This document shows, piece by piece, positions 3,152 through 20,908 of a DNA stretch of 64,000 bases. The DNA comes from Prescottella agglutinans (GTDB taxonomy: Bacteria > Actinomycetota > Actinomycetes > Mycobacteriales > Mycobacteriaceae): positions 248,001-312,000 of the forward strand of contig NZ_RKLP01000006.1 in NCBI RefSeq assembly GCF_004011865.1, in the 5' to 3' direction. The notes under the pieces are model-generated. The model was not told where the DNA came from. It saw nothing but the letters and a program-made list of their open reading frames with translations, and did not search any database. Each line of letters starts with the position of its first letter. The first letter of the stretch is position 1. Position numbers and translations under genes: made by a program.

Positions 3152-3177
3152 ATACCCCGCGCCGCTCCCGAACAATC
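3152..3177 (-). promoter_or_regulatory. Weak SigB/SigF-type promoter for the decarboxylase
   Basis: GATT (3174-3177) - 16 bases - GGGTAT (3152-3157), read on the minus strand. The -10 is ideal. The -35 fits only the looser GNNT form known from Streptomyces SigB. The start site would fall a few bases before the ATG at 3142. Confidence 0.4.
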
Positions 3178-3221
3178 TCTTCGTGACGGCAGGTCGGCTC
3201 GCGGTCGCCGGCCGTGGCGAG

Positions 3222-3246
3222 GTTTGTCCCGCCCCGGTTCGGGTAG
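3222..3246 (+). promoter_or_regulatory. SigB/SigF-type promoter for the 3315 gene
   Basis: GTTT (3222-3225) - 15 bases - GGGTAG (3241-3246). This matches the general-stress sigma consensus GTTT-N14-17-GGGTA(T/A). It lies 68 bases before the ATG at 3315. Confidence 0.65.
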
Positions 3247-3314
3247 GTCACTGTCATCACGGAATCCGCTTCGCATTCACGTAGCTGTGCCGGCGAATCG
3301 TCTCAGGAGTAGGC

Positions 3315-3719
3315 ATGTACATTCTCGGACTCGTCCTACTGATCGTGGCCGTTGCGATCGGTGTGGCGGGAGTTGTCACGAATACCGGAACCAGCCACAT
3401 GGTGGGCGGCGAATTCTCCGTCTTCGGAGTGCACATGACCGGCTCGACCGGAGCCTTGTTCCTTGTGGGAATCGTCGTGGGTGCGGCCGGAATGCTGGGA
3501 CTGAGCATGGTGCTGGCTGCGTCGCGACGCCGCGCGCGTCAGTCGCGCCAGACTCGACGGGAACTCGAACGGACTCAGGCGGCGCTCAACGTGGATCGAG
3601 GTGACGCTGCCGCACCGACCCGCGCACAATCTGCGCCCGACACGGCGCCCCGGATGTCGCGAAGCTGGAAACATCCGTTCGGTGGGGCTGCGCGGTCGAC
3701 ACTGTCCCCGTCCCATTGA
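3315..3719 (+). CDS. Small membrane protein of unknown function
   Basis: A 134-residue protein with two hydrophobic segments, about residues 2-24 and 44-66, then a basic Arg-rich stretch (71-83) and a polar tail that should be cytoplasmic. I do not recognise a named family. A CAGGAG-like ribosome site precedes the ATG, and a SigF-type promoter stands upstream. The F420-type oxidoreductase gene follows on the same strand after 74 bases with no promoter I can see, so the two may be cotranscribed. Confidence 0.75.
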   Translation: MYILGLVLLIVAVAIGVAGVVTNTGTSHMVGGEFSVFGVHMTGSTGALFLVGIVVGAAGMLGLSMVLAASRRRARQSRQTRRELERTQAALNVDRGDAAAPTRAQSAPDTAPRMSRSWKHPFGGAARSTLSPSH

Positions 3720-3793
3720 CGATCTTCTCGTACAGGCTTACCGGATCGGCGAAACCTTCTCCGGCGCAGCGCGATAACGGGAGCGGAAGCACC

Positions 3794-4762
3794 GTGAAGA
3801 TCGGATACAAGCTGTTCGCGGAGGCGTATTCGCCGACCGAGTTGGTTCGGCAGGCGGTACAGGCCGAAGCTGCAGGTTTCGACTTCGTCGAGATCAGCGA
3901 CCACTACCACCCGTGGCTGCACGACCAGAACCATTCGGGTTTCGCATGGTCGATTCTCGGTTCGATTGCGGCGAGGACGGCGACCCTGGGTCTCGCCACC
4001 GGGGTGACGTGTCCGTTCATCCGATACCACCCGGCGATCATCGCTCAGGCAGCCGCGACGACCGCACTCTTGTCCGGAGGAAGGTTCGTCCTCGGGGTCG
4101 GGAGCGGGGAGCGGCTCAACGAACACGTCGTTGCACGGGGGTGGCCGTCGGCATCGACGCGCTCCGAGATGCTGCGCGAATCGATCGAGGTGATCCGTCT
4201 GCTGTGGAGCGGCGGTTACCACAGCTACCACGGCAGGCACATCGACCTCGAAGATGCCCGGGTGTTCGATCTGCCCGACCCCCTGCCGCCGATCGTGGTC
4301 GCGGCATCGGGAGGACGCTCCGTCGTGATCGCCGCCGAGTCCGGAGATGGGCTCTTCGCGACGGAGGCGGATCCCGAACTGGTGGACGAGTACAGCCGAG
4401 CCGGCGGTGCGGGGCCACGTTATGCCGAGGTCTCGCTCGCGTGGGCGCCCACCGACAAGGAGGCGCTGGAATCGGCCCACCGGCTGTTTCGGTTCTCGGC
4501 TGCAGGTTGGAAGGTCCAGGCCGAACTGCCGAACCCGATCAACTTCGAGGCTGCGGCATCGGTGGTCCGTGAGTCCGACATCGCCGAGAGCTTCGGATAC
4601 GGGCCGAATGTCACACGCCACGCTGAACGGGTACGAAAGTACGCCAAGGCGGGATTCGACCATCTCGCGTTGGTCAACGCCGGCCCCGATGTCGACGGGT
4701 TTTTCCGCTTCTATGCCGATGAGCTCGCGCCGGCCTTGTCGTCCAGCGCTATCGGTGAGTGA
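3794..4762 (+). CDS. LLM-class F420-dependent oxidoreductase, G6PDH-like family (TIGR03557 type)
   Basis: A 322-residue TIM-barrel enzyme of the luciferase-like group, closest by eye to the F420-dependent glucose-6-phosphate dehydrogenase-like family. Typical blocks are KIGYKLFAEAYSP, EISDHYHPWLHDQ, TGVTCPFIRYHPAI and VGSGERLNEH. It should use coenzyme F420 for hydride transfer. The substrate is unknown, and glucose-6-phosphate should not be assumed. GTG at 3794 is chosen because the family motif begins right there; the upstream in-frame ATG at 3716 adds an unconserved leader. Confidence 0.88.
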   Translation: MKIGYKLFAEAYSPTELVRQAVQAEAAGFDFVEISDHYHPWLHDQNHSGFAWSILGSIAARTATLGLATGVTCPFIRYHPAIIAQAAATTALLSGGRFVLGVGSGERLNEHVVARGWPSASTRSEMLRESIEVIRLLWSGGYHSYHGRHIDLEDARVFDLPDPLPPIVVAASGGRSVVIAAESGDGLFATEADPELVDEYSRAGGAGPRYAEVSLAWAPTDKEALESAHRLFRFSAAGWKVQAELPNPINFEAAASVVRESDIAESFGYGPNVTRHAERVRKYAKAGFDHLALVNAGPDVDGFFRFYADELAPALSSSAIGE

Positions 4763-4844
4763 CAGCGCGAGACGCGGTTGGTTCGGACCCGGAACAAAGA
4801 GCGACAGAGCGTTTTTCGCCGCGGTGAGAAGGGAGAGGTTTCCG

Positions 4845-4968
4845 ATGCCGAAGACGAGTCGTCGTTCAGCGATTGCACATCGAGGGACGCTCCACAATGA
4901 GCAAAGACGAACTGGTCGAAGCGATCGAGAAGGAGAATCGACGTCGAAGCGCCGCGGATCGGGGTTGA
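4845..4968 (+). pseudogene. Remnant of a ChaB-like small protein (broken)
   Basis: The start at 4845 has a good ribosome site (GGGAGAGG) and begins MPKTSRRS, like actinobacterial ChaB-type proteins. A different frame, ending at TGA 4966-4968, encodes IEGRSTMSKDELVEAIEKEN, which looks like the C-terminal Rho-N-like helix region of the same family. The 100 or so residues between are gone and the frame is shifted. I read this as an internal deletion. It could instead be a 23-residue peptide starting at ATG 4897, which is less likely. Confidence 0.6.
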
Positions 4969-4987
4969 TGGATGCGGCGCCGGCTGA

Positions 4988-7031: not shown

Positions 7032-7037
7032 CGGATG

Positions 7038-7289
7038 CTACTTGTCCTGGTGGGCTCGCTGTCGTGCTTCCTGAGCCGACGCCTTGCCGCGTGCCTTCTC
7101 TGCCTCGGCCTCCTTCGCTGCCGCTTCGCGCTGTGCCGAACCCTTCGCCTGCTGGGCCTTCCCCTCGCGGACCATGTCGTCCTGACCGGTCACTGCGCCG
7201 GCAGCCTCTTTGGTCTTGCCTTTGACGCCTTCGACGACGCCCTTGACCGCCTCCGCGGGTCCTGACTTCTTCTTGTCTGTCATGATCAT
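7038..7289 (-). CDS. CsbD family stress protein
   Basis: An 83-residue, highly charged, Ala/Lys/Glu-rich protein without hydrophobic segments. The central AVKGVVEGVKGKTKEAAG block is the CsbD core. CsbD proteins are general-stress markers whose action is unknown. Two starts are possible, ATG 7289 or ATG 7283; AAGGGA lies about 5 or 11 bases before them. It is the first gene of the operon that ends with the diiron enzyme, and a SigF-type promoter lies just upstream. Confidence 0.85.
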   Translation of the reverse strand: MIMTDKKKSGPAEAVKGVVEGVKGKTKEAAGAVTGQDDMVREGKAQQAKGSAQREAAAKEAEAEKARGKASAQEARQRAHQDK

Positions 7290-7322: not shown

Positions 7323-7348
7323 CTACCCGAATGGAGCATCCGGCAAAC
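7323..7348 (-). promoter_or_regulatory. SigB/SigF-type promoter of the csbD operon
   Basis: On the minus strand GTTT (7345-7348) - 16 bases - GGGTAG (7323-7328), about 33 bases before the csbD ATG. Both boxes are intact. Confidence 0.7.
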
Positions 7349-7450: not shown

Positions 7451-7475
7451 GTTTGCTACCAGCCGTTCGGGGTAC
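7451..7475 (+). promoter_or_regulatory. SigB/SigF-type promoter of the alcohol dehydrogenase
   Basis: GTTT (7451-7454) - 15 bases - GGGTAC (7470-7475), 34 bases before the GTG at 7510. It points away from the csbD promoter about 100 bases upstream. Confidence 0.7.
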
Positions 7476-7509: not shown

Positions 7510-8688
7510 GTGAAAGCTGTGACCTGGCAAGGAAGACGACACGTCAGTGTCGACACGGTCCCGGATCCTGCGATCAGAGAGTCGACCGATGCGATCGTAG
7601 AAGTGACGACCACGAATATCTGCGGCTCCGATCTCCACCTGTACGAGTTGCTCGGGCCGTTCATGAATCCCGGCGACATCCTCGGGCACGAGCCCCTCGG
7701 TGTCGTCAGAGAAGTCGGTCGCGAAGTCGGGGATCTCTCGGTGGGTGACCGGGTGGTCATACCGTTCCAGATCTCGTGTGGGCATTGTTTCATGTGCGAA
7801 AGTGGCCTTCAAACCCAGTGCGAGACAACGCAGGTGAGGTCCGAGGGAACGGGAGCAGCCCTGTTCGGCTACTCCAAACTCTACGGAAGCGTACCTGGCG
7901 GGCAGGCCCAGTACCTGCGGGTCCCTCAGGCACAGTACACCCACATCAAAGTTCCGGAGGGGCCCCCGGATGACCGCTTCGTCTACCTGTCCGATGTGCT
8001 GCCCACTGCCTGGCAGGCGGTAGCGTATGCGGGCGTTCACGGCGGTCAGTCGTTGACCGTGTTCGGCCTCGGTCCCATCGGCGACATGGCGGCTCGTATC
8101 GCCACGCAGCGAGGGGTGCGGGTCATCGGGGTCGACTTGGTTCCCGAACGCCTTGCGCGACTGCGGGATCGTGGTATCGAGGTACTCGACCTACGCGAAC
8201 ACGATGACATCGGTGCAACCGTCAGGGACCTGACCGACGGCCGGGGTTCCGATGCCGTGATCGACGCGGTGGGCATGGAAGCGCACGGGTCGGCCGGCGC
8301 GAAGCTTGTGCAACAGGCGGCTTCGTACATGCCCGATGTGGTTGCTGCGCCACTGTTCACCCATGCCGGTATCGACAGGCTCGCCGCATTGAACGCGGCG
8401 ATCGACGTCGTCCGCCGGGGCGGGACGATCTCGATCGTCGGCGTCTACGGGGGTGCCCTCGACCCGCTGCCGATGTTCGAGATCTTCGACAAGCAGATCC
8501 AGATTCGGATGGGGCAAGCGAATGTCAAGCGTTGGGTGGACGACATCCTCCCGCTCCTGATCGATGGCGATCCGCTCGGTGTCGAAACGTTCGCCACCCA
8601 TCGCCTTCCGTTGAGCGACGCTCCGCACGCGTACGAGATCTTCCAGAAGAAGGAAGACGGCGCAGTGAAGATCCTCCTGCAGCCCTGA
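7510..8688 (+). CDS. Zinc-dependent alcohol dehydrogenase family protein
   Basis: A 392-residue medium-chain dehydrogenase. The catalytic zinc site shows in NICGSDLHL and GHEPLG, the structural-zinc cysteines in SCGHCFMCESG, and the NAD(P) loop in VFGLGPIGDMAA. It resembles the formaldehyde-dehydrogenase-like or threonine-dehydrogenase-like branch with a long insert. The substrate is unknown. GTG 7510 is supported by GGAGGAG seven bases upstream; the ATG at 7453 lies inside the SigF-type promoter and is rejected. Confidence 0.9.
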   Translation: MKAVTWQGRRHVSVDTVPDPAIRESTDAIVEVTTTNICGSDLHLYELLGPFMNPGDILGHEPLGVVREVGREVGDLSVGDRVVIPFQISCGHCFMCESGLQTQCETTQVRSEGTGAALFGYSKLYGSVPGGQAQYLRVPQAQYTHIKVPEGPPDDRFVYLSDVLPTAWQAVAYAGVHGGQSLTVFGLGPIGDMAARIATQRGVRVIGVDLVPERLARLRDRGIEVLDLREHDDIGATVRDLTDGRGSDAVIDAVGMEAHGSAGAKLVQQAASYMPDVVAAPLFTHAGIDRLAALNAAIDVVRRGGTISIVGVYGGALDPLPMFEIFDKQIQIRMGQANVKRWVDDILPLLIDGDPLGVETFATHRLPLSDAPHAYEIFQKKEDGAVKILLQP

Positions 8689-9385: not shown

Positions 9386-10120
9386 TCACTCCGATCCGCC
9401 GGTCACCTTGTCCAGGAGTTGGTGGGCGACGGCACGCAACTTGACGTTCGACTCTTGAGAGGTGCGGACCAATCGGTCGAACGCGTCCTGTGAGGAAACG
9501 CCGTGAAGCGCCATGACGACACCGATCGCGTGGTCGATGTCGGCCCGTGAGGTGAGCGCTGCCTGAAGGTTTCGAATGGAACGCACTGCCCGCCGGTGTC
9601 GCTCCGCCTGCAGCAATGCCGTCACCGCCGCTGTCGTGAAGACCTCGAGGATCGATTCGTCCAGCGACTGGAAGCCCTGGGGATCGTTGCTGTAGAGATT
9701 GAACGAACCATGGGTCTCGTCGGAGAGCACCAGCGGAAGTGCTATGAAGCTCTTGATGCCGATTCGGGCTGCGGGTTCCACCAGTTCCGGCCAGGCGGCG
9801 CGGACTTGTTCCATGTCCGCTATCACGGGCCGGCCCTCTCGGGCAGCGGCCAGGCACGGTCCTCGGTCGCCCGAGTACTGGACCGCATCGACATCCCGAA
9901 CGTGCGGATGGTTTGCCGCGACGGTTTCGGCGGTGCCGTCGGTCAGGAGCATGATGCCTGCCAGATCGGCATCCGGAACGATCCGCACAACGCTGTCGAC
10001 GAGGTGTTGGAGTACCACCACGAGGTCGTCGTACTCGTCCAGAACGTCGGACAACTCCTGCAGGGCGGCGTTGAGGTCGTCGAAGCGCTCATCCAACGAG
10101 TCGATCTCGTCGGTGTTCAT
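9386..10120 (-). CDS. GAF-ANTAR domain regulator
   Basis: A 244-residue soluble regulator. A GAF sensor domain occupies about residues 30-165 and an ANTAR RNA-binding domain about 178-238 (RADIDHAIGVVMALHGVS, then DAFDRLVRTSQESNVKLR). ANTAR proteins bind paired hairpins in nascent RNA and prevent termination; the GAF ligand is unknown. It begins 31 bases after the STAS gene with GTGAGG as ribosome site, so the two form an operon beside the sigF pair. Confidence 0.9.
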   Translation of the reverse strand: MNTDEIDSLDERFDDLNAALQELSDVLDEYDDLVVVLQHLVDSVVRIVPDADLAGIMLLTDGTAETVAANHPHVRDVDAVQYSGDRGPCLAAAREGRPVIADMEQVRAAWPELVEPAARIGIKSFIALPLVLSDETHGSFNLYSNDPQGFQSLDESILEVFTTAAVTALLQAERHRRAVRSIRNLQAALTSRADIDHAIGVVMALHGVSSQDAFDRLVRTSQESNVKLRAVAHQLLDKVTGGSE

Positions 10121-10151: not shown

Positions 10152-10586
10152 TCAGGACATCTGGCCAATCGGATCGCAGCCCACTGCGGATTCGACCGTC
10201 GGATGGCACGCGATGAGTTGACCGGCCCCGGTAGCCGCGAGGGCACGGTCGACTCCCCTTGTGGCAGTGACGAGTTTGAATTCGAAGCCGTGGTCGCGAG
10301 CACGTTCCTTCGCTTCGACGAGTGCGGATGTGGCATCGATACTGACGAAGTCGATCCGCGACAGGTCGAGCACGATAAGGTCGCCGTCGGTGAAGCCGTC
10401 GGCGGTGACTTCCTCGAGCACCGCGTTGTAGGTGTGGCGGAAGCGGTCGATGGAGTTCATGTCCAAGCTGGCGCTGAACTCGATGACGGCCACGGCAGGG
10501 GGTGAAGTCCACGCTGGCCGCTCGCAATCGGTCCCTGGGGCGTCCGATCGAACTGAGGTGTTTGCGGGGATAGCAGAATCAGGCAC
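10152..10586 (-). CDS. STAS domain anti-sigma factor antagonist
   Basis: A 144-residue STAS protein. It has an unconserved 30-residue N-terminus and then the fold AVIEFSASLDMNSIDRF, LIVLDLSRIDFVSIDATSAL. The Ser in FVSIDAT is at the position phosphorylated in SpoIIAA/RsbV proteins. It probably frees SigF by binding the anti-sigma factor encoded 1.0 kb upstream. The GTG at 10586 has GGAGG four bases away. No clear promoter was found; the GTTT-N12-GGGTAC at 10720-10741 has too short a spacer. Confidence 0.85.
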   Translation of the reverse strand: MPDSAIPANTSVRSDAPGTDCERPAWTSPPAVAVIEFSASLDMNSIDRFRHTYNAVLEEVTADGFTDGDLIVLDLSRIDFVSIDATSALVEAKERARDHGFEFKLVTATRGVDRALAATGAGQLIACHPTVESAVGCDPIGQMS

Positions 10587-10750: not shown

Positions 10751-10775
10751 GTTTCCGGGAAGGAGGAATGGGTAG
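10751..10775 (+). promoter_or_regulatory. Orphan SigB/SigF-type promoter facing the 3' end of sigF
   Basis: GTTT (10751-10754) - 15 bases - GGGTAG (10770-10775) on the plus strand. No plus-strand gene follows. Transcription would enter the sigF gene antisense from about base 10782. GGAAGGAGG inside the spacer is probably chance. Confidence 0.45.
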
Positions 10776-10843: not shown

Positions 10844-11620
10844 CTATCTCTCCGCCTGCTCGCGAAGCTTGGCGAGTGTGCCCGACAGGATGCGTGAGAC
10901 ATGCATTTGGGAGATTCCGATCCGCTCGGCGATCTGCGACTGTGTCTGGTTACCGAAGAAGCGCAGCAAGAGCACGGTCCGTTCCCGGTCGGGCAGGTCT
11001 TCGAGCAGGACTCGCAGCACCTCGCTGTTCTCGACGTCGGCGAGATCGCTGTCGAGGTCTCCCAGTACGTCGGCGAGGGTCAGTCCGGTTTCGGTTCCCG
11101 CTGCCTCGGCGTCCACGGAGAGGGTTCGATAGCCGCTCGCGGCCTGCAGGCCCTGGACGACGTCCTCCTCGCTGACGCCCAGTTCGGCGGCCAATTCGCG
11201 TGTGGTCGGTGAGCGCCCCAGCCGCTGCGACAGGCTCGATGCGACCTTGGCGATGTCCAGGTGCAGTTCCTTCAACCGTCGCGGCACACGAACTGCCCAG
11301 CCGGCATCCCGGAAGTGGCGGCGCACTTCGCCCATGATCGTCGGTACCGCGAACGCGAGAAAGTCCGATCCGCGATGGACGTCGAAGCGATCCACCGCAT
11401 TGACGAGGCCGAGACTGGCTACCTGTAGGAGGTCGTCGAACGGCTCGCCGCGTCGGTCGAAGCGGCGCGCGATGTGCTCCGCGAGCGGTAGGCAGCGGGT
11501 GATGATGTCACGGCGCAGATCCAGGCGGATCGGATCGTCCGGGTCGAGTGAACTCAACGACACGAACATCGGTTTCACATCGCTGTACTCATCGGGCCGG
11601 TCGGCGACGTGTCGGCTCAC
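10844..11620 (-). CDS. sigF: RNA polymerase sigma factor of the SigB/SigF/SigG family
   Basis: A 258-residue group 3 sigma factor. Region 2 contains EPFDDLLQVASLGLVNAVDR, region 3 the VRVPRRLKELHLDI stretch, and region 4 the helix-turn-helix SQIAERIGISQMHVSRILS near the C-terminus. This is the general-stress class, which reads GTTT / GGGTA promoters. Its start overlaps the anti-sigma stop by 4 bases, the usual rsbW-sigF arrangement. Several promoters of that type lie within 10 kb on each side. The name sigF is by family, not by direct comparison. Confidence 0.92.
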   Translation of the reverse strand: MSRHVADRPDEYSDVKPMFVSLSSLDPDDPIRLDLRRDIITRCLPLAEHIARRFDRRGEPFDDLLQVASLGLVNAVDRFDVHRGSDFLAFAVPTIMGEVRRHFRDAGWAVRVPRRLKELHLDIAKVASSLSQRLGRSPTTRELAAELGVSEEDVVQGLQAASGYRTLSVDAEAAGTETGLTLADVLGDLDSDLADVENSEVLRVLLEDLPDRERTVLLLRFFGNQTQSQIAERIGISQMHVSRILSGTLAKLREQAER

Positions 11621-12125: not shown

Positions 12126-12150
12126 GTTCCCGCGCCAGACGATTCCAAAC
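12126..12150 (-). promoter_or_regulatory. SigF-type promoter of the anti-sigma/sigF operon
   Basis: On the minus strand GTTT (12147-12150) - 15 bases - GGGAAC (12126-12131), about 69 bases before the anti-sigma ATG. The same GGGAAC -10 is found before DUF6131 at 20884. It implies autoregulation. Confidence 0.55.
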
Positions 12151-12174: not shown

Positions 12175-13392
12175 TCATCGACCGACACTGCCCGCCGAGC
12201 GCGCGAGATGATGCCTCGTGACCGACTCGTAGATCCGTTCGGTTTCGTCGGCTATGCGATCCCACGAGTAGCGTTGCACGGCTCGATCTCGCCCGGCATG
12301 ACCGAACTCCTCACGCCGCACCGGTTCACCCAGGAGTCCGTGCAACGCCCGCGCGAGCGCGTCGGAATTGCGCGGCGGAACGTGGATTCCGGTGATGCTG
12401 TCGACGACCGTGTCGGTGAGCCCACCCACTGCGCTCGCCACGACCGGCTTCGAACAAGCCATCGCTTCGAGCGGAACGATCCCGAACGGCTCGTACCACG
12501 GTGAGCAGACGACCACATCGGTCGACCGCAGCAGTTCGGGCATGAGGGTTCTCGGTATCGGTCCCGGCATCGCCAGTCGGTCGGCCACGCCCAGATCGAC
12601 TGCCAGCGCGAGCAACCTCTGTCCCTCGACGTCGTCGGCGACGTCGCCGTCCGCGGGCCCCCCGGCGATCACGAGCTCGGCATACGGGAGCTTCGGCAGC
12701 GAGCGGATCGCAACGTCGAATCCTTTGCGGGGGACCAGCCGCCCGATGCTCGTGAGCCGCAGGCGATCGCTGCGCGGAGCACGGGGACCGTCCGGTCGGA
12801 ACTCCTCGACGTCGACGCCTGACGGCACGACGGTGATGTGCGAGCGCGGGACCCCCATGCGAACCAGTTCGAAGACCTCGTCCGAGCATGTCGCGGCTAC
12901 CGCGTCCACGCTCTGTCCCAGTTTGCACTCCAAGGGGATTCGCTCCGGTGGGCTCGTATCCGCAGCGCCCTGATAGCGCCTCTTGACGATGCCCAGCGCG
13001 TGGAAGGTGTGGACGACCGGGAGATTGCAGGTCCGGCTCGCGAGGCTGGCGGTCAGTCCGGACGTCCAGAAGTGCGAGTGGACGACGTCGAAGTCGTACC
13101 GGGAGAAATGGTCCCGCAGACCACACGCGAACTCCTGCATGTGAGGGAGAAGCTCGTCCTTCGGGACCTTTTCCGGTGGTCCGGCCGGCACGTGGACCAG
13201 GTCGTACCCGTCCGGCGCCCGGACCACGTCCGGTGCCGCCTCGCTGTCCCGACGCGTGAAGACGACGACTTCGTGGCCATGCCCGACCAGCGCGGCGGAC
13301 AGCGCCGCCACGTGGACGTTCTGTCCGCCGGAGTCCACCCCGCCCATGGCGGCGAGCGGATTGGCGTGACAGGAGACCATCGCGATCTTCAT
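12175..13392 (-). CDS. Glycosyltransferase family 4 protein
   Basis: A 405-residue GT-B retaining glycosyltransferase. The N-terminal domain has the acceptor-side GGVDSGGQNVHVA loop. The C-terminal domain has the donor-site SIGRLVPRKGFD and the E-x7-E motif in EPFGIVPLEAM. It resembles the MshA/sucrose-synthase-like GT4 enzymes; donor and acceptor are unknown. ATG 13392 has GGAGG nine bases upstream. The gene starts only 30 bases after gvpK on the same strand with no promoter seen, so it may be the last gene of the gas vesicle operon. Confidence 0.88.
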   Translation of the reverse strand: MKIAMVSCHANPLAAMGGVDSGGQNVHVAALSAALVGHGHEVVVFTRRDSEAAPDVVRAPDGYDLVHVPAGPPEKVPKDELLPHMQEFACGLRDHFSRYDFDVVHSHFWTSGLTASLASRTCNLPVVHTFHALGIVKRRYQGAADTSPPERIPLECKLGQSVDAVAATCSDEVFELVRMGVPRSHITVVPSGVDVEEFRPDGPRAPRSDRLRLTSIGRLVPRKGFDVAIRSLPKLPYAELVIAGGPADGDVADDVEGQRLLALAVDLGVADRLAMPGPIPRTLMPELLRSTDVVVCSPWYEPFGIVPLEAMACSKPVVASAVGGLTDTVVDSITGIHVPPRNSDALARALHGLLGEPVRREEFGHAGRDRAVQRYSWDRIADETERIYESVTRHHLARSAGSVGR

Positions 13393-13422: not shown

Positions 13423-13761
13423 TCATTCATCGGCCAGGAGCGGACCGAGCGGACCGAGATCGATGTTCAGGTCCTCGGGGGTGAGTCCGAAGTGCTCGCG
13501 TAACTCCTCCATTTTCTCCTCGAGCCGCATCAGCGTGGTCCCGATCCGCTCGATCTGGGCATCGGACAGGTCGCCGACATCGACCCGGCGCAGGGCCTGT
13601 CGCTCCATCAGTTGACGCAGCAGCTCGACCAGCGTGAGCACCAATGCGACGAGACCACGTTCGACGGACTCGGGATCCGAATCGATTCGCTGCCGTAACG
13701 ACGGCGCCCGTCCCGGGGCCGGATCGACCTCCGGCGTGTCCCTGTCGTCGGGATCCTTCAC
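13423..13761 (-). CDS. gvpK: Gas vesicle protein GvpK
   Basis: 112 residues with the GvpK core: RIDSDPESVERGLVALVLTL, the LLRQLMERQALRRVD helix, and ERIGTTLMRLEEKMEELR. GvpK is an accessory factor needed for vesicle assembly. The GTG at 13761 is set by the GTGA overlap with the upstream GvpA-like gene. The C-terminus carries a short LGPLGPLL repeat. It is the last clear gvp gene of the cluster. Confidence 0.93.
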   Translation of the reverse strand: MKDPDDRDTPEVDPAPGRAPSLRQRIDSDPESVERGLVALVLTLVELLRQLMERQALRRVDVGDLSDAQIERIGTTLMRLEEKMEELREHFGLTPEDLNIDLGPLGPLLADE

Positions 13762-13961
13762 TGGCCTCGGTCCAGCGTCTGCTCGGGCGGCGGCATCAGC
13801 GCGCTGACCGACGACACCAGCGTTCGCAGCGATATGTGGACCATGTCCACGTCCGCGATGGACAGGGTGATCTCGCCGGCCACCACGACACCGCCGCCGA
13901 GGACACGATCGAGCAGGTCCACCAGCGCGATCCGGCGATCTGGATATGCAGCGACGCTCAT
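13758..13961 (-). CDS. gvpS: GvpA/GvpJ-like gas vesicle protein, short (GvpS position)
   Basis: A 67-residue GvpA-family protein. It has the core IALVDLLDRVLGGGVVVAG and the following strand-helix ITLSIADVDMVHISLRTLVS, with almost no tail. GvpA-fold proteins build or cap the vesicle shell. The order (after GvpL, before GvpK) equals gvpS in Streptomyces clusters. ATG 13961 overlaps the GvpL stop by 4 bases. Confidence 0.9.
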   Translation of the reverse strand: MSVAAYPDRRIALVDLLDRVLGGGVVVAGEITLSIADVDMVHISLRTLVSSVSALMPPPEQTLDRGQ

Positions 13962-14740
13962 TTCGTTCTCGATTCGTCGGCGGTGAACGAGTACGGCGGC
14001 CACGGACCGGTGATGACCGTCTCGGCACCCTCGATGCGGTCGTTGATCGCCTCGACGGCGGAGGTGAACTCGCGGGTGCGACGGTTGTCGACCAGATAGG
14101 ACGCGTTGAGAATCTCCCAGGACTGTTCGGGGGCCAGACCGGGGGCCGACGGGCGTTGTCGAACGGCGGCGACTGCGACGCGCTCCAGTTCCGAATAGAT
14201 TTCGTCGGCAATCGCCGCAGCGGCGGATTCCGCGTCCTCCCGAGCAGCGGCCTGCGCTCGTCTGCGCATGAGATACGCGGTCCCCGAGGTTGGTCCGCTC
14301 TCGTCCGAGGCGGGAACCTTCTCGGCGAGCCTGTCACGGTGTCCGTAGGATCGCACACCCCATTCCGTCCGGTCCGCGATTCTGTCCAGCGCCGCTTCGA
14401 GTTCATCCACCCTCTCGCGCAACATGGCTCGCACACGTTCGTCGTCGTAGTACACCGTGGCGAGACGAAGGGGTATGGTCGCGCCCCCTGCGCAGATGGC
14501 GGCAACGACCGCGTCGTGACGGCGTGCGGTATCCGAGAGCCAATCGAGATCCTCGAGGTTGCGGTGCAGCGCGGCCTCCCCGAATTCGTCGAGAGCGACC
14601 GACCCGACGACGGCCGCCAAACCCGAGTCGGCCACGGTGCGCAACGATTCGCCCGCTACACCCCGGATGCCGGAGATGCCGCCCGGGAAGGAACCGTCGG
14701 ACGTGACCGCATAGACCCACACGCCCTCATTCCCGGTCAC
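13958..14740 (-). CDS. gvpL: Gas vesicle protein GvpF/GvpL family (second copy)
   Basis: A 260-residue GvpF/L protein. It starts VWVYAV, has the conserved IPLRLATVYYDDERVRAML centre and ends with the typical ITGPWPPYSF. GvpF/L proteins bind GvpA monomers during assembly. The GTG at 14740 overlaps the previous gene by 14 bases and starts right before the conserved strand. It shares its fold but little sequence with the copy at 15713. Confidence 0.92.
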   Translation of the reverse strand: MTGNEGVWVYAVTSDGSFPGGISGIRGVAGESLRTVADSGLAAVVGSVALDEFGEAALHRNLEDLDWLSDTARRHDAVVAAICAGGATIPLRLATVYYDDERVRAMLRERVDELEAALDRIADRTEWGVRSYGHRDRLAEKVPASDESGPTSGTAYLMRRRAQAAAREDAESAAAAIADEIYSELERVAVAAVRQRPSAPGLAPEQSWEILNASYLVDNRRTREFTSAVEAINDRIEGAETVITGPWPPYSFTADESRTK

Positions 14741-15143
14741 GACGGTGCTCCTGGTCCTCCGGCTGGTCGGCCTCGACCGATTGCCGGCCGGGAGCGGCGA
14801 GATCCCCGGCGGTGCGGTTCCCCGCCTCCAGTGCGGCGATGCGGTCACGCAGGCGGCGGTTCTCCAGTTCGAGGTCGTTGCTACCTCCGGTGAGCCAGGG
14901 ATCGTGCTCCCACCAGTCGATTCCGACCTCGCGCGCGGTCTCCAACGAGGCGATGACCAAGCGGAGCTTGATGGTCAGAAGTTCGATATCGAGAAGGTTG
15001 ACGCGAATGTCGCCGGCGATGACGATGCCCTTGTCCAGGACGCGTTCGAGGATGTCCGCCAGATTCGCCGGTTCGTGTCCGGCGCCACCGAGACCCTGAC
15101 CGTACGGTTGCGGGTAGCCGGCTCCGCCTCCAGCCCGCGTCAC
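14727..15143 (-). CDS. gvpJ: GvpA/GvpJ-like gas vesicle protein with C-terminal tail
   Basis: A 138-residue protein. A Gly/Tyr-rich leader (to about 25) precedes the GvpA fold (LADILERVLDKGIVIAGD, then VNLLDIELLTIKLRLVIAS). It ends with a charged helical tail containing ENRRLRDRIAALEAG and a polar end. The long tail points to a GvpJ-like minor shell protein. The GTG 15143 overlaps the GvpO stop by 4 bases. Confidence 0.88.
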   Translation of the reverse strand: MTRAGGGAGYPQPYGQGLGGAGHEPANLADILERVLDKGIVIAGDIRVNLLDIELLTIKLRLVIASLETAREVGIDWWEHDPWLTGGSNDLELENRRLRDRIAALEAGNRTAGDLAAPGRQSVEADQPEDQEHRRDRE

Positions 15144-15460
15144 CGCTCCGCGCCCCTCGGCGACCGGCCACGCGTGTACTGCTGAATCCGCTTGTAGGAA
15201 AGCAGCATTCCGTCCAAGTCCATGTCCACGGCGTAGATCGCCAGGACGTCGGACGACGACGGAATCCTGCGATCCTCGACGACCTCTACCTCGACGGACC
15301 ATCCTTCGTCGCTGGGCGCGACGGATACGGCCCCGACGGGCGGACACCCGGTGAGCTCGGCGATCTGACGGGATGCTTCCGCGGCGGCCTGCGGTGCGGT
15401 CAGATCGGGACTCGCACCGGCGTCGTTCGGCATTTCATCTGGATCTCGTGGACCGGACAT
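15140..15460 (-). CDS. gvpO: Gas vesicle protein GvpO
   Basis: 106 residues with the GvpO signature VEVEVVEDRRIPSSSDVLA, then YAVDMDLDGMLLSYKRIQQY. GvpO is an accessory or regulatory protein of the vesicle gene set. ATG 15460 begins three bases after the GvpG stop, which itself lies within the ribosome-site region. In Streptomyces gvpO heads the cluster. Here it sits inside, between gvpG and gvpJ. Confidence 0.92.
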   Translation of the reverse strand: MSGPRDPDEMPNDAGASPDLTAPQAAAEASRQIAELTGCPPVGAVSVAPSDEGWSVEVEVVEDRRIPSSSDVLAIYAVDMDLDGMLLSYKRIQQYTRGRSPRGAER

Positions 15461-15463
15461 TCC

Positions 15464-15709
15464 TCACTCCGTTCCGCCGCTTGTCTCACGCCCCGTCATT
15501 CGGGCAACCACTTGCTCCTCGGCGCGCGCGGCCTCTTCCTCGGAGATCTGCCCCGACGCGCGAGCATTGTCGATGTCGTCGAGCTGGCGTCGCAGGGCGG
15601 CTGGGCTGTAGAGCTCCTCCTCCACCTGTCGGCGAACTATGTCTCCGAGCCACACCACGCCGCGCACAGGCGCCAGGGGGAGTCCGAGGACGGCAGAGAA
15701 GATTCCCAT
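15464..15709 (-). CDS. gvpG: Gas vesicle protein GvpG
   Basis: 81 residues. The hydrophobic N-terminal GLPLAPVRGVVWLGDIVRRQ and the charged helix YSPAALRRQLDDIDNARASG are the GvpG pattern. It acts with GvpF/L in assembly. It starts three bases after the gvpF stop. Confidence 0.92.
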   Translation of the reverse strand: MGIFSAVLGLPLAPVRGVVWLGDIVRRQVEEELYSPAALRRQLDDIDNARASGQISEEEAARAEEQVVARMTGRETSGGTE

Positions 15710-15712
15710 GGC

Positions 15713-16495
15713 TCAGCTACCGGGGGCTCGTGTCTTCGCGAAGTCGTATGCCGCGAGCGGGCCGAGAACGCTGAGATCGACTCGGCCCTCCCACTCCTGG
15801 TTCAGGCGCTCCACCGTCTTGTCCAGAGCATCGACGTTGTCCGCGGCAATCAGGACGGCCACCGAACCGGCATCCTCGTCATCGGTCACGTCACGGACCC
15901 TCACGTCCTCGGCCACCTGTTCGAGTGCCTCGAGAAGCTGCTGTGTGTCCTGCCCTCGTTTGGTTTCCAACTCCTGTGCGATGCGCTCGCCGAGCGCAAG
16001 TCGCGCGTCGCGCGTGACCTCCTCTGGCTGGTCCCGGATGATCTCCCGGAGCCGGTTGGCCTCATCGTCCCCCGACAGGATCTCGCGCAGGACGGCGTCT
16101 TCGACGTACTTGCCCTTCACCACGTACTCGACGAGCCCCTCGAGTTGGTCGAGCGCGTCGGTGAACTCGTCGCGATAAGGTTCCAGCAGTTCGGACACCA
16201 CCGCGTCGGCATCGGTCATCACCGCGCCGAACTGGAACGGCAGCACCGGTGCGACCGCGGCAGTGGTGTCGAGAATCCTGGCATGGGCACGTAGATCTTC
16301 CGGTGTCCCCACCGGGCCGTCCGGGTCGATCTCGCTGACGAGCGCCGCGATGTCGTCGAAGGTGACGGTGGACAGCGGGGCGGGAGGCGTGCCGATGCCG
16401 GTGGCGTCCGGCTTCACCTCGACATCCGCCGGCACCAGTCCGTAGACGTATACCGCCGTAGTGTGGTCGCCGCTCTCGGATTTCTGGTCGGTCAT
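15713..16495 (-). CDS. gvpF: Gas vesicle protein GvpF/GvpL family (first copy)
   Basis: A 260-residue GvpF/L protein: N-terminal [11 protein letters not shown], central [20 protein letters not shown]-terminal [12 protein letters not shown]. The middle region is rich in acidic helices. The start overlaps the GvpA-like gene by 4 bases (ATGA). As the first F/L gene behind gvpA it matches the gvpF slot of Streptomyces clusters. Confidence 0.93.
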
Positions 16496-16893
16496 TGCTC
16501 GCTGCCTCCGCGGGATCGTCCTCGTGGCTGCTTTTCGCGGGCCTCTTCGACACTGCCGAGGAAGTCGGCCACCTTCTCGCCGGCCGCCTCGATCGCGCCC
16601 TTGGACTTGGATCGTGCGGCACCCTGGGTCATGCCGTCCACCATGTCCGGTAGACCCTTGGGTTGGGTGCTGGAGATCTCCAATCGATTGACTGCCTCGG
16701 CGAAACGCAGATAGGTATCGACGCTGGCGACCACGACGCGCGCATCGACGGTGAGAATTTCGATGCCCACCAGGGACACGCGGACGTACGCGTCGATGAC
16801 GAGACCCTTGTCCAGGATCGTGTCGATCACGTCGGCGAGGCTACTGGAACTCGGGCCTCCGCCCGCACCTCCGCCGCCTTGCATGATGGTCAT
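16492..16893 (-). CDS. gvpA: Gas vesicle structural protein GvpA-like
   Basis: A 133-residue protein. After a Gly/Ser leader it has the shell-protein core [20 protein letters not shown], then [20 protein letters not shown] and [14 protein letters not shown]. The C-terminal third is Lys/Arg-rich. It is the best candidate for the main wall protein among three GvpA-fold genes. The ATG overlaps the SRPBCC gene's stop (ATGA). The C-terminal extension resembles actinobacterial GvpA. Confidence 0.92.
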
Positions 16894-17951
16894 CGGGCTG
16901 CCCCCTGCTTCCGGCGTCGCCCCGTTTGCGGCTCCGCCTCGTCTTCGTCCTCGTCTTCGTCGTCGGGTTCCCGATCGCCTTCCCGCTCGTCGTCAGGCGC
17001 CTCGTCCGAAGCGGCGCCTTCCATGTCCGCGCGGTCGCGACCCTCTTCTTCTTCTCCTTCCTCTTCTTCCTCTCCGTCCAGTTCTTCCGGTTCCTCGAGT
17101 TCCTCCTGCTCCCTCTGCTCTTCCAGTTCCTCGGGCGGCACGACCTCGCTGTCGTGGATTTCGCCGTGCCAGCCCTCCACGTCGTCCGGGTGCAGCACCG
17201 TCTGCATCATGACGTGGCGTTGAAAGTGCTTGAGCTCCAGTCTGATACGGCGACCTTGTGCCCGCCAGATATTGCCGGTCTTCTCGAAGAAGCCCTGTGG
17301 GTGGTACTCGATGATCACCTGAACACGCGTCAGTCCGGGTGCGAGTTCGTGGAAGGTGACGGCGCCGTCCAGATAGCCCTTGGCTCCCTTGGAACGCCAC
17401 ACGATGCGTTCGTCGGGGACCTGCTCGAGGATCGTCGACTCCCACGAACGATGCGACCAGAAGACCTGCGCCTTCCACTGCAGTTTCTCGTCCGAGACCT
17501 GCTCGACCTGTTCGAGTTTCTTCATGAATCCGGGGAAATCGGTGAACTGTGTCCACTGGTCGTACACAAGATCGATCGGAGCGCCGACGTCGATCTGTTC
17601 GACGATGTTGACGATCTTGCGGCCCTTGCCCTTCCCCTTGCCCTTGCCTCCGGTCAGGGTCTCCTTGAGGTCGCGGCCCTTCTCCTTGATCTTGCCGGTG
17701 AGGCTCGACCACCCCGCCTTCATCGCGGCTTTGGCTGGAGATTCGCCCTGCGCCAACCCTGTCACCGCGGTGGCGAGGCCTCCTTTTCCGCCGCCGGCAG
17801 TGAACTCGTCGAGGTGCCCGACCGTCGACGCCACGGTGTCCGTCAGTGACTTCACACCCTTCTCGGTGACTGCTCCGACGAGGTGCTGGAGTGAGTCCTT
17901 GAGTTGGTCCGTACCGCTTGTCGACTTCTTCGCTTCCTGGGTCGTGGCCAT
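16890..17951 (-). CDS. SRPBCC protein of the gas vesicle cluster (GvpZ-like position)
   Basis: 353 residues in three parts: a helical N-terminus (1-100), a Gly-Lys linker [12 protein letters not shown], and an SRPBCC/cyclase-dehydrase domain (about 114-250, with [19 protein letters not shown] and [11 protein letters not shown]). A very acidic Glu/Asp tail follows to the end. The same kind of gene is found in Streptomyces gvp clusters. Its role is unknown; a ligand- or lipid-binding chaperone is possible. ATG 17951 is preceded by GGGAGGTGA; GTG 17960 is possible but lacks a ribosome site. Confidence 0.85.
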
Positions 17952-17956
17952 GCCGT

Positions 17957-18592
17957 TCACCTCCCGGTGCGCCGCACCGGCGCGTCGTCCGAGGAGGCGG
18001 ATCGCGAAGTTGTCCGGGTCTTCGGTTGGGCAGCTTTGCGGGTTCGGGGACTGCTACTCCGAGTCGACCTTGCCCGAGTCGATGTGGATCGGCGCCGTGG
18101 TGCTTCGGTGTGCCCGTCGCCGTCGTGGTGTTCGCCCGCTCGATCCTCGTCGTCGCGATCGGCGGCCGTCGACTTCTTCGGTCGTTCCTCGGACGCGGTT
18201 CCCTTGTCGCGGGCCGAGTCGTCTTCAGCCTCGGATGCTTCGGTGTCCTCGTGTTCCTCCTCGGGCGCCAGCACGCCGGTCACGCCCTTGGTGACACCCT
18301 CGGTCACCCCTTCGATCCGATCCGTCAGGGCGTCGATCCGGTTGCTCGCCGCTGCGACCGCGGCGTGCTTGGCGGCGTCGACCAACTCGCCACGCAAGCT
18401 TTCTGCGAGCTTCGATACCTCGGCGGAGTTGCCCAGTCGTTTCACGCCCTCACGTACCAGCCCCTGTGAACTGCTCGGAAGCCGACCGGTCGCTCCCGCG
18501 CCGGCGAGCATAAGCGCGGCCTTCATCTTGCGTGTGCGGCCGAGGAAGTATCCGGCCGCCACGGCGAGGGCGACACGCATGCCACCTTTCAT
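17957..18592 (-). CDS. Gas vesicle cluster protein with N-terminal hydrophobic helix (GvpY-like position)
   Basis: A 211-residue protein that I cannot place in a named family. Residues 6-18 and 25-36 are hydrophobic and could associate with membrane. Residues 45-110 are amphipathic helix (ASNRIDALTDRIEGVTEGV). The C-terminal half is Arg/Ser/Glu low complexity. It is the first gene of the gvp operon, with GAGGAG nine bases before the ATG; its stop lies in the ribosome site of the SRPBCC gene. Confidence 0.75.
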   Translation of the reverse strand: MKGGMRVALAVAAGYFLGRTRKMKAALMLAGAGATGRLPSSSQGLVREGVKRLGNSAEVSKLAESLRGELVDAAKHAAVAAASNRIDALTDRIEGVTEGVTKGVTGVLAPEEEHEDTEASEAEDDSARDKGTASEERPKKSTAADRDDEDRAGEHHDGDGHTEAPRRRSTSTRARSTRSSSPRTRKAAQPKTRTTSRSASSDDAPVRRTGR

Positions 18593-18655: not shown

Positions 18656-18742
18656 CGACTCACGGGAGGGTTAACCAACGTGGTGGGCCCGCAAACACGA
18701 AACGGCGGAAAAGTCGCGGAGAGGCCGTAGGGCGCGGACGGC

Positions 18743-18768
18743 GAATGAAACGGCTCGAGAACGGGTAT
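18743..18768 (+). promoter_or_regulatory. Possible SigB/SigF-type promoter of DUF6480
   Basis: GAAT (18743-18746) - 16 bases - GGGTAT (18763-18768), 27 bases before the ATG at 18796. The -10 is perfect and the -35 is GNNT only. Confidence 0.4.
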
Positions 18769-18795: not shown

Positions 18796-19053
18796 ATGAC
18801 CGAACCGAGCGCATCGCGCGGACCGGACCCTGATCCGCGCAACACCCCCGACCTCGAGCCGGGCGGGGGAGTTCCTACCGGATCCACACCGCCGGCATCG
18901 GGAGGAACCCACAGGGTGTCCGAGCACGAGCCGGACACCCGTGATCACTTCCCCGCGACGGGTGTGGCGACGATCGTGGTCGTCGCCGCCATCGTGGTGG
19001 TGTTCCTCGTCGTGGTGGTGGGGCTCATCCTGATGGCGACCGGGGTCTGGTGA
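18796..19053 (+). CDS. DUF6480-like small membrane protein
   Basis: An 85-residue protein. The polar Pro/Gly-rich N-terminus (SRGPDPDPRNTPDLEPGGGV) with the EHEPDTRDHFPATG motif is followed by one strong membrane helix (about 58-82). The pattern fits the DUF6480 family; its function is unknown. ATG 18796 has GAGGAGG upstream. A frame open from 18745 would overlap the GGGTAT element and is not used. It is divergent from the gvp operon. Confidence 0.75.
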   Translation: MTEPSASRGPDPDPRNTPDLEPGGGVPTGSTPPASGGTHRVSEHEPDTRDHFPATGVATIVVVAAIVVVFLVVVVGLILMATGVW

Positions 19054-19065
19054 CGGGCCACGTCT

Positions 19066-19917
19066 TCAGGATGCCGCTCGTTCTTCGACCGAAGCGATCA
19101 GGTCGACGACCTCTTGGTCCAACACTGCCCGCCGCTCCGCCCTCACATTGATCTCGGGCCAGCTGTCGATCGGTCGGATGGTCCGGCCCGCTTCGAAGGC
19201 CGTCACGACTCGTGGGTCCACATACGAAGCCCGCGCTACTGCTGCGGTGTTGCCGAGTTCGGTCGCGACCGTCCGCATCACTGCGAGTTCGGTTCGGCGC
19301 AGTGCTCGGCGGGACCTCGGGATCTCCGTGTCGGCGAGGGTCGCCGCCGCGAATACCGTTGCGTTCCAGGTGCGCAGATCCTTGGGGGTGAACTCATCAC
19401 TGAGTAGCTCATGGAACCGTTCGCCGATCTCGTCAGCTCGATCGTGCCAGCCTTCGGGCGTCCGATAGGCCAGAAATCTGGCGTCCGGAGGACGCCCTCG
19501 ACGTTGCCGATACGAAAGGCGCCGAGATCGAGGAGCCGCAGCGCGACGTGAACGACCCTGCTCCGCGTCGCACCGCGGTCGGCGAGACGGTCGACCACCT
19601 CCTGCCGGAACGTCGGAAGGTTCGGCTGCAGCCTCAGGACCCTGTCGTACTTCTCCCGGTCCCGCTGCTCGCGCCACCGCGGGTGGTAGACGTACTGGCG
19701 CCGTCCGGCGTCGTCCGTGCAGATGCCCCGACGGATCCGCGCAGATCCACACATCGCGCCAGGCAGGGGGGACCGCCAGAGATCGAATTCTCTCCAGAGT
19801 CGCGTCGTGCAGTCGAGCGCCGGAGGCGTCACGGTACTCGAACCCGCTCCCGCGCCGGCGGCGCGAGATTCCGGGTTCGTCGACGTTGCTGCGACGCAGT
19901 CCGTCGAAATCGGTCAT
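19066..19917 (-). pseudogene. DNA topoisomerase IB, frameshifted and internally deleted
   Basis: Poxvirus-like topoisomerase IB. From ATG 19917 one frame gives a normal N-terminus (SGFEYRDASGARL to DPSGHL, about base 19720). A second frame continues TDDAGRRQYVYHPRWREQRD to FRIGN (about 19500). The first frame then resumes at FLAYRTPEGWHD and runs to the stop, including the ASYVDPRVV block around the catalytic Tyr. About 60 residues between RIGN and FLAYR are missing compared with the family, which should remove catalytic side chains. Two shifts plus a deletion make it a pseudogene unless there are sequencing errors. Confidence 0.8.
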
Positions 19918-19969
19918 GCTCGGCGGATACCCGCGCGACGTCAGAGTCGGATCTCTCGACGTCCAGCGA

Positions 19970-20548
19970 TCAGCGTTCGGTACCCCGTCGGCTGACTGCG
20001 TCCCGCATGCGGTCGAGAATGCCGGTGATGGGGCCGAGGAGCAGGTCGCCGGGAGGTTCGTCCGGTGCAGACGGGTGAGGACGGGTCGGCGCCAGCTTCT
20101 TCACGGACTCGACTTTGCGGCCGAGATCGACGAGTTCGTCCGGAGTGAAGATGGTCCGCATGTGCGGGAAGATCTCGGACTCCTCCTCCTGGACGTGTTC
20201 GCGGATCTCGTGCATCAAGAGAGCCAGTTCCGCATCGAACTGCGGATCGTCCGGGTCGAGGCTTTCCAAGCGTTTCATCGTCTGCTCGGCCTCGGCATGT
20301 TCGTGCTTCGCCCGTTCTGCCTCGGAGGCGCTGACCTTCCGCTTGACGGCCGGGTACACCTCCGCTTCCTCCGCGACCGAGTGCTTCACCAATTCGATCA
20401 CCGTCTGGTCGACCAGATCTTTGCGGCGCGCTCTCGCCGCATCGCCGCCGGAGTCGTCGAGCCCTTCGAGTTCGGCGAACATGCGCTCGACTTTGCGGTG
20501 GTCCTCGGTGAGAAGCTCGATCACGTCTGGTTCTCCTCGTGGAGCCAT
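19970..20548 (-). CDS. Hemerythrin domain-containing protein
   Basis: A 192-residue four-helix protein. The diiron ligands of the hemerythrin (HHE) fold are visible: DVIELLTEDHRKVERMF, VELVKHSVAEEAEVYP-like IELVKHSVAEE, KHEHAEAEQ, and EIREHVQEEESEIFPHM. Such proteins bind oxygen or sense redox and iron. ATG 20548 has GAGAGGAGA upstream. It lies 111 bases behind DUF6131 and 52 before the topoisomerase remnant, so all three may share the DUF6131 promoter. Confidence 0.9.
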   Translation of the reverse strand: MAPRGEPDVIELLTEDHRKVERMFAELEGLDDSGGDAARARRKDLVDQTVIELVKHSVAEEAEVYPAVKRKVSASEAERAKHEHAEAEQTMKRLESLDPDDPQFDAELALLMHEIREHVQEEESEIFPHMRTIFTPDELVDLGRKVESVKKLAPTRPHPSAPDEPPGDLLLGPITGILDRMRDAVSRRGTER

Positions 20549-20659
20549 CAGGGTCTCCTCTCGCTGGTTCTGATTGTGGGTGTCGTGCTTCGGGGGACGG
20601 TCGGCCGGAACCCGGATCGGCAACCCGACCCGAGTTGGGACTGTGTGGTCACTGTGTGG

Positions 20660-20815
20660 TCAGTACCAGTAGCGGCGGCCTCCGACCGCGCGTCCGGTGG
20701 CTCCCAGCAGCGCGAGAATGGCGCCGACAACGACCAGTACGATGCCGATGATCCAGATGATCTGGATCCCGGTCAGGAAGCCGATGAGAAGCAAGATCAA
20801 ACCCAGGATGATCAT
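20660..20815 (-). CDS. DUF6131-like small membrane protein
   Basis: 51 residues, nearly all hydrophobic: two helices (about 2-16 and 18-40, GLILLLIGFLTGIQIIWIIG) and a Gly/Arg/Tyr tail RAVGGRRYWY. This is the DUF6131 pattern; the function is unknown. ATG 20815 has GAGGTG five bases upstream. A SigF-type promoter with GGGAAC lies about 70 bases before it. Confidence 0.8.
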   Translation of the reverse strand: MIILGLILLLIGFLTGIQIIWIIGIVLVVVGAILALLGATGRAVGGRRYWY

Positions 20816-20883
20816 CACCGCACCTCGATTCACGTCAGGGCGCGTCTCTCGGTTCGCACTTCGACGACACCCTTTGGCGGAGA

Positions 20884-20908
20884 GTTCCCGGCTGCCGGCC
20901 GGTGAAAC
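20884..20908 (-). promoter_or_regulatory. SigF-type promoter of DUF6131
   Basis: On the minus strand GTTT (20905-20908) - 15 bases - GGGAAC (20884-20889). It has the same spacing and -10 as the anti-sigma/sigF promoter at 12126. Confidence 0.55.

Follow-up and report, generated by a model that had tools for sequence, protein, structure and literature searches.

The sigF locus and its SigF-type sites

Prescottella agglutinans is a soil actinobacterium of the Rhodococcus equi group (genus Prescottella). We analyzed 64,000 nucleotides of its 5.43 Mb genome (labelled G000; contig NZ_RKLP01000006.1, positions 248,001 to 312,000 of the forward strand; hereafter the window), where an original prediction made from the sequence alone had proposed a SigF/SigB-type stress regulon around its own sigma factor gene, sigF. 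The block in question is bordered by hisI (to 1658) on one side and by a tautomerase-MarR-LigB-type dioxygenase gene set (21715-23322) on the other. It encodes a decarboxylase, a membrane protein, an LLM oxidoreductase, a haem-oxygenase-like protein, a CDGSH protein, a methyltransferase, a protein of the microaggregate-binding protein 1 family (MBP1-like), a zinc-dependent alcohol/formaldehyde-type dehydrogenase (ADH), CinA, a GAF-ANTAR regulator, a STAS-domain protein, the sigF-rsbW pair, a GT4 glycosyltransferase, a gas vesicle (gvp) operon, a DUF6480 protein, a topoisomerase IB, a hemerythrin HHE protein with a DUF6131 protein, and a DUF6098 protein.

A sigma factor of the matching class lies, as predicted, in the middle of this block: sigF (10844..11620, minus strand) encodes a protein of 258 amino acids, SigF1, that carries the Pfam Sigma70 regions r2, r3 and r4 and scores above the cut-offs of both the NCBIfam SigF model NF005514 (379.6 bits, cut-off 372) and the TIGR02980 SigBFG model (296.9 bits, cut-off 234.35), placing it in the SigF/SigB-type class; its clade agrees. 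In a tree of 42 sigma factor loci and the window (6 of the 63 loci L106-L168 included), SigF1 falls in a 12-row clade (support 100/99) that includes two rows duplicating unnamed ones under a name; next to it is a clade of ten SigF2 rows (100/97), and the two clades are joined at 89/86. Orthologues of SigF1 (75-83% identity) occur in nine of the 13 other genomes of the genus, and the window genome itself carries a SigF2 paralogue (G000:C20:87599-88354) that is 62% identical to SigF1. The sigF gene adjoins and overlaps the gene of a 146-residue HATPase anti-sigma factor (11617..12057, minus strand; Pfam HATPase_c_2, scanned with a longer start), and a conserved cognate-type site precedes the pair in 10/10 loci, window included. 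By phmmer, the nearest solved structure to this RsbW-like protein is 'Anti-sigma-F factor RsbW' (8ih8/8jzt, E about 1e-10), while its score lies under the NCBIfam RsbW cut-offs (28.8 vs 145 bits). Past sigF, a gene found 3' of it in 9/9 relatives encodes a STAS-domain protein of 113 residues (10152..10493, minus strand; Pfam STAS at 42.4 bits vs a cut-off of 22.6, and under the TIGR00377 cut-off at 37.0 vs 53.45 bits), which is a candidate antagonist partner of the RsbW-like protein.

The window holds six matches to the strict pattern, GTTT-N14-16-GGG(A/T)A, each with a spacer of 15 or 16 and all of them within 3222-20908. Five of these sites stand directly before genes, exactly as the original prediction had placed them, with the -10 box 35-70 bp from the start codon: 3222..3246 (plus strand), about 69 bp before the membrane protein gene and probably serving the F420 LLM gene as well; 7323..7348 (minus strand, GTTT-N16-GGGTAG), about 40 bp before the MBP1-like gene and perhaps serving the genes after it; 7451..7475 (plus strand, GTTT-N15-GGGTAC), about 35 bp before the ADH gene; 12126..12150 (minus strand, GTTT-N15-GGGAAC), about 69 bp before rsbW-sigF, where it would make the operon autoregulated; and 20884..20908 (minus strand, GTTT-N15-GGGAAC), about 66-69 bp before the DUF6131 gene. 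The sixth, at 10751..10775 (plus strand), is missing from the earlier list; it lies in the gap between sigF and the STAS gene, oriented so as to read into sigF from its 3' end. We also scored the window with a matrix trained on 26 promoters of relatives, the window's own sites being excluded from training. The matrix ranks them in the order 7323 (19.0 bits, the best of the window), 3222, 12126 (15.8 bits), 20884 (14.4 bits), 7451, 10751 (13.4 bits), 3152 (12.9 bits) and 18671 (11.6 bits); all eight reach at least 11 bits and lie in the block, and the remaining 43.7 kb of the window holds none. The last two are looser in sequence: GATT-N16-GGGTAT at 3152..3177 (minus strand) is the probable promoter of the decarboxylase gene, 10 bp before its ATG, and GTTT-N16-GGTTAA at 18671..18696 (minus strand) is the predicted promoter of the gas vesicle operon. 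Three loose matches had been named originally. Two of them, 3152 and 18743, held up, the latter (18743..18768, plus strand, GAAT-N16-GGGTAT; 8.8 bits) as a probable divergent promoter before the DUF6480 gene, where GAAT/GCAT-N16-GGGTA is found, by eye, in 5/7 loci that have the gene, window included; the third, 18631, did not.

Six strict matches compare with a mean of 0.44 and a maximum of 2 in 100 shuffles of the window, and within the window GTTT-Nk-GGG(A/T)A is found 6 times at k=15/16, whereas all other spacers from 8 to 24 together give 3 matches. When the 40 matches of the whole genome were placed at random, none of 200,000 trials gave six in 17.8 kb, the largest number being five. The density of strict sites is 338 per Mb in the block vs about 6 per Mb elsewhere. 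Promoters of the form GTTT-N14-17-GGG(T/A)A, as in a SigF/SigB-type regulon, therefore stand upstream of the putative targets above chance.

The sites recur in relatives. Across nine orthologous sigF loci of 20 kb, each with two to five strict matches (six in the window), the motif is found 31 times at spacers 15-16 vs 11 times over all 19 remaining spacers between 6 and 26, and it lies within 150 bp upstream in 26/30 orthologues of six block genes: 9/9 for rsbW (in the form GTTTGG-N-GGGAA), 3/3 for DUF6131, 4/4 for ADH (full-length orthologues, a 28-residue ADH fragment in L076 being left out), 5/6 for MBP1, 3/5 for LLM and 2/3 for the membrane protein. No orthologue of the decarboxylase was found among the sigF loci of the nine relatives. 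Within these 20 kb, both hisI and the tautomerase set flank the block in 3/9 relatives (L070, L072, L073); one flank only is visible in 3/9 (L075, L076, L077) and neither in 3/9 (L071, L074, L078). The cargo between the flanks varies, which suits gain and loss around a fixed sigma gene without proving it. Local clustering is not confined to Prescottella, since 13 SigF-homologue loci of other Rhodococcus and relatives (L091-L103) have the motif 39 times at spacers 15-17 vs 19 times at the other 18. Spacer counts cover all 80 of the loci L089-L168, and gene tables 20 of them. At L106-L168, mostly SigF loci of Geodermatophilaceae, spacer 17 dominates with 36 matches, spacers 16 and 15 having 8 and 2, which looks like a shift of the favoured spacing in this group.

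From the sites, their statistics and conservation, and the class of the sigma factor, we consider it highly probable that a SigF-type regulon has its core in the 1.7-20.9 kb block, assembled around its own regulator, as originally proposed.

The gas vesicle operon

The gas vesicle operon (13423..18592, minus strand) is recognized by matches to Pfam Gas_vesicle, GvpL_GvpF, GvpG, GvpO, GvpK and Polyketide_cyc. It encodes three shell proteins of the Gas_vesicle family (GvpA-type), two GvpF/L proteins, GvpG, GvpO, GvpK and an SRPBCC protein; the first gene matched no family, and we take its product to be GvpH-like. The site at 18631, named in the original prediction as its promoter, scores 0.0 bits by the matrix and was replaced by 18671-18696, where GTTT-N16-GG(C/T)TA occupies the same place, about 79 bp before the first gene, in 7/7 genus members with the operon. 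Between this site and the start codon, at about 18605-18640 (minus strand), the seven genus genomes share a second conserved block, GATCCGGnCCGnnGGGGTACCGG, with variants (around GATCCGG-CCG--GGGGTACCGG). An Rfam scan of positions 1-24000, this leader block included, gave no match, and the fold of the leader (18593-18664; z -0.9) is nothing unusual.

GvpF/L is found in 7/14 genomes of the genus, all seven of which have SigF1, with GvpF/L within about 13 kb of it. In a family draw of 201 genomes, GvpF/L occurs in 32, of which 25 belong to other genera, and in 1/25 of these (G074) a SigF-type gene (E <=1e-40) lies within 20 kb of GvpF/L on the same contig, a figure that may be an undercount because several assemblies are fragmented. 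One genome of the draw, G035, has several GvpF/L copies on contig C25 (at 249, 463, 465 and 644 kb). We sampled one operon from each of 20 of the 25 non-genus genomes: the strict form GTTT-N15/16-GG(G/C/T)(T/A)A lies within 150 bp before 7/20, a number that 2000 mononucleotide shuffles never approached (at most 2), and in six of the seven no SigF-type gene was found within 20 kb. Among the other 13/20, four carry GGTT-N15/16-GGGTA at about 150 bp and nine carry neither form. Because the strict site is present in 7/20 non-genus operons while linkage is seen in 1/25, the SigF-type gvp promoter seems older than the sigF-gvp linkage.

The operon could instead lie outside the regulon, leaving an inner core of rsbW-sigF, MBP1, ADH, LLM and DUF6131. 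We regard this as unlikely. Speaking for it, the -10 element of the gvp site is GG(C/T)TA rather than GGGTA, 13/20 non-genus operons are without a strict promoter within 150 bp, and the second conserved block may bind another regulator. However, 7/7 genus members agree in GTTT and in the N16 spacer, the SigF-dependent gene MSMEG_5342 of Mycobacterium smegmatis is listed with GTTT-N16-GGCTA (PMC4694148), and the gvp operon of Streptomyces coelicolor is reported to be SigB-regulated (PMC5733086).

Genome-wide matches and the SigF2 loci

Several points weigh against reading the block as a SigF1 regulon. The loose match at 18631 failed; the STAS gene lies 350 bp past sigF; the CinA, GAF-ANTAR, STAS and DUF6098 genes each lack a nearby upstream SigF-type site; and the matrix stays near the strict pattern because its 26 training sites were chosen by that pattern. 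The 4/30 orthologues without the motif are MBP1 in L071, LLM in L073 and L078, and the membrane protein gene in L070, the preceding membrane protein gene carrying the motif in the case of the two LLM orthologues. Over the whole genome, the 40 matches at spacers 14-16 compare with totals of 122 over spacers 0-13 and 144 over spacers 17-30 (14 spacers in each set), that is, about 13.3 vs 9.5 per spacer, or 40 vs about 28.5 expected (a roughly 1.4-fold excess), so that many matches outside the block are background. A reversed-pattern control (10 vs 40) was dropped as too easy and replaced by these wrong-spacer controls. The original prediction had asked whether the pattern is equally common in the backbone: by density it is not (338 vs about 6 per Mb), although genome-wide it is mostly background. 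The comparison of upstream and other positions that it had also called for gave no clear difference, with 18/40 motif sites vs 8/20 wrong-spacer sites (taken from 21 in the window genome) within 250 bp before a same-strand start, and 29/40 vs 12/20 intergenic, both by a home-made codon-score gene finder that is weak either way because it overlooked both the 3315-3719 gene and rsbW's true start. Sites both intergenic and within 80 bp number 13/40 vs 2/20, a limit set post hoc.

Elsewhere in the genome, L032 has a tandem pair of strict sites (G000:C20:48458 and 48752) separated by about 290 bp, the near one 10 bp before a small open reading frame of 112 amino acids; among the matches listed, G001, G003 and G004 also show site pairs, 257-282 bp apart, as possible counterparts.

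Presence of SigF1 goes along with a spacer-specific excess. The ten SigF1-bearing genomes of the genus have 349 matches at k=15-16 vs 236 at k=19-20 and 178 at k=23-24, and the four genomes without SigF1 have 120 at k=15-16 vs 126 and 98 at the same control pairs. Subtraction of a repeated GTTT match (22 and 10 copies), which we take to be 16S rRNA, leaves an odds ratio of 1.6 (p 0.0006 by Fisher's test; p 0.014 by Mann-Whitney test on the genomes), in a comparison whose force is lessened by non-independent genomes of a single genus, by a second repeated match, probably rRNA, that remains in the counts, and by the 79% completeness of G002, which belongs to the four SigF1-free genomes.

The sites may also be genuine SigB/F-type promoters that are read by SigF2, or by both sigma factors, their nearness to SigF1 being incidental. 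SigF1 and SigF2 belong to the same family, SigB homologues of S. coelicolor share promoters, and cross-recognition among its SigB-type sigma factors is documented (PMC8346170). At one SigF2 locus, L083 of genome G007, homologues of the LLM, MBP1, DUF6098 and DUF6131 genes lie about 3.7-9 kb from SigF2 and away from SigF1, together with four strict sites; since several motif-bearing cargo genes have moved beside SigF2 there, SigF2 or both sigma factors may read the motif. The ten SigF2 loci are otherwise poor in sites: their 199 kb hold six strict matches at spacers 14-16, the four in L083 included, with at most one per 20 kb in nine of the ten and none at the window genome's own (L081). Matrix matches of at least 11 bits number 9 in the same 199 kb (five in L083) and 2 in the 28 kb of the flanks L038 and L039. 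Motif clusters thus accompany SigF1, not the paralogue, in nine of the ten paralogue loci compared, no spacer-specific excess shows in the four genomes that have SigF2 and lack SigF1, and the best conserved site is the promoter of SigF1's own operon, all of which makes reading by SigF2, or by both, quite improbable. The notion that the block is merely an inherited neighbourhood, its genes together for other reasons and the pattern due to chance or composition, is the least credible by far: the bare pattern is indeed mostly background genome-wide, but the spacer specificity in the window and in relatives, the conservation upstream of diverged genes and the confinement of matrix matches of at least 11 bits to the block in the window speak strongly against it.

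Proposed regulation, cargo and known systems

Partner switching is the general mechanism of SigB/F-type sigma factors, and we propose it for SigF1 because the families of the RsbW-like and STAS proteins imply it. The co-encoded RsbW-like anti-sigma factor would hold SigF. The STAS antagonist, perhaps with the GAF-ANTAR protein (9386..10120, minus strand; Pfam GAF_2 and ANTAR) as a possible signal carrier, would free it under stress, and RNA polymerase with the freed SigF would read GTTT-N15/16-GG(G/C/T)(T/A)A promoters. This would raise the rsbW-sigF operon in a positive autoregulation and turn on the gas vesicle operon, DUF6131-HHE, the MBP1-like unit, ADH and the membrane protein-LLM unit; the decarboxylase and DUF6480 genes would probably respond too, as would scattered genes in other parts of the genome. 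We infer recognition by SigF1, the stress signal, the switching steps and any phenotype from these protein families and sites. In M. smegmatis, RsbW2 alone, not the sigF-linked RsbW1, is reported to have phosphorylated RsfB in vitro (PMC7693655).

By strand and spacing, the block genes would fall into about eight units, the first gene of each being preceded by a SigF-type site. The Orn/Lys/Arg decarboxylase gene (1676..3142, minus strand; Pfam OKR_DC_1) stands at one end. The gene at 3315-3719 (plus strand), without a Pfam match and by our own labelling by eye a membrane protein gene, is followed by that of the F420 LLM oxidoreductase (3794-4762, plus strand; TIGR03557 family), giving the pair 3315..4762. 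The 81-residue MBP1-like protein (7038..7283, minus strand; NCBIfam NF050175 above cut-off) is encoded next to the methyltransferase (6318-7031), CDGSH (6079-6321) and haem-oxygenase-like (5029-6078) proteins (all minus strand, by Pfam); being on the same strand and almost gapless, these genes perhaps form one unit with it. The ADH gene (7510..8688, plus strand; Pfam ADH_N, ADH_zinc_N) follows, and the GT4 glycosyltransferase gene (12175..13392, minus strand; Pfam), directly downstream of gvpK, perhaps belongs to the gas vesicle unit. The DUF6480 gene (18797..19053, plus strand; Pfam PF20088) has a start picked by eye. The genes for the DUF6131 membrane protein (20660-20818), the hemerythrin HHE protein (19970-20548) and topoisomerase IB (19066-19917), all on the minus strand and by Pfam, form a possible operon (19066..20818) to judge from their layout. 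In the topoisomerase IB gene the reading frame shifts mid-gene and then returns; the gene is therefore broken, or the assembly is in error.

The antisense site at 10751 has equivalents of at least 11 bits on the antisense strand in 4/10 orthologous gaps (window, L070, L074, L076) and in 0/10 on the other strand, and 300 shuffled gap sets gave at most 2/10 scoring like it. Three of nine relatives thus have a counterpart, strict in two and with GGGTC in L070, and the function of the site is doubtful because six of the ten gaps are without one. Terminator-like hairpins nearby (2 vs 1.5 expected in shuffles) are uninformative. Transcription by SigF from this site, running antisense to sigF at its end, may contribute a negative feedback. 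Such feedback could form part of a broader and tentative idea, that the sigF locus is an accretion site at which cargo with pre-existing SigF-type promoters has been collected and swapped. The gas vesicles would be its clearest case, gvp being joined to sigF in 7/7 genus genomes with the operon vs 1/25 others, and 7/20 non-genus operons already having the strict promoter.

A comparable cluster is on record in M. smegmatis, where the genes listed as reduced on deletion of sigF include 27 from the interval MSMEG_1766 to MSMEG_1804 (sigF); a GTTT -35 element is given for 19 of these (PMC4694148, Singh 2015). The two share a SigF-class sigma factor, GTTT-N15/16-GGG(T/A)A promoters and numerous motif-bearing genes in the tens of kb around sigF. 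Further likenesses are by name only, unaligned: a type I topoisomerase (the SigF-dependent MSMEG_1784 there, topoisomerase IB here), a methylase and dehydrogenases, and, elsewhere in the M. smegmatis regulon, an arginine decarboxylase and hemerythrins. Unlike in Prescottella, where SigF dependence is inferred, it was measured in M. smegmatis, and the cargo differs; the term 'gas vesicle' is absent from the main text of that regulon paper (PMC4694148). In S. coelicolor, the reported osmotic-stress regulon of SigB includes the gvp operon SCO6496-6508, under a SigB/F-type sigma factor as proposed for Prescottella (PMC5733086), to which Prescottella adds GvpF/L within about 13 kb of sigF in 7/7 genomes having GvpF/L. 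The sigma/anti-sigma/antagonist logic also resembles the SigB general stress response of Bacillus subtilis, with its given consensus GTTTAA-N12-14-GGG(A/T)A (PMC8346170), although the RsbW-like protein of the window scores far under the NCBIfam RsbW cut-offs. Among the openly licensed papers listed in our searches, judged by titles and the beginnings of abstracts, none reports the sigF/gas vesicle arrangement for Rhodococcus.

A local SigF cluster and a SigB-controlled gvp operon are thus each already on record, and it is the joining of both that is unusual. The finding overturns nothing known. It gives a conserved SigF promoter model for the Rhodococcus equi group (Prescottella), ties the gas vesicles of an actinomycete of this group to a general stress sigma factor, and offers natural comparisons (SigF1 present or absent, gvp linked or unlinked) with which to ask why a regulon assembles beside its regulator.

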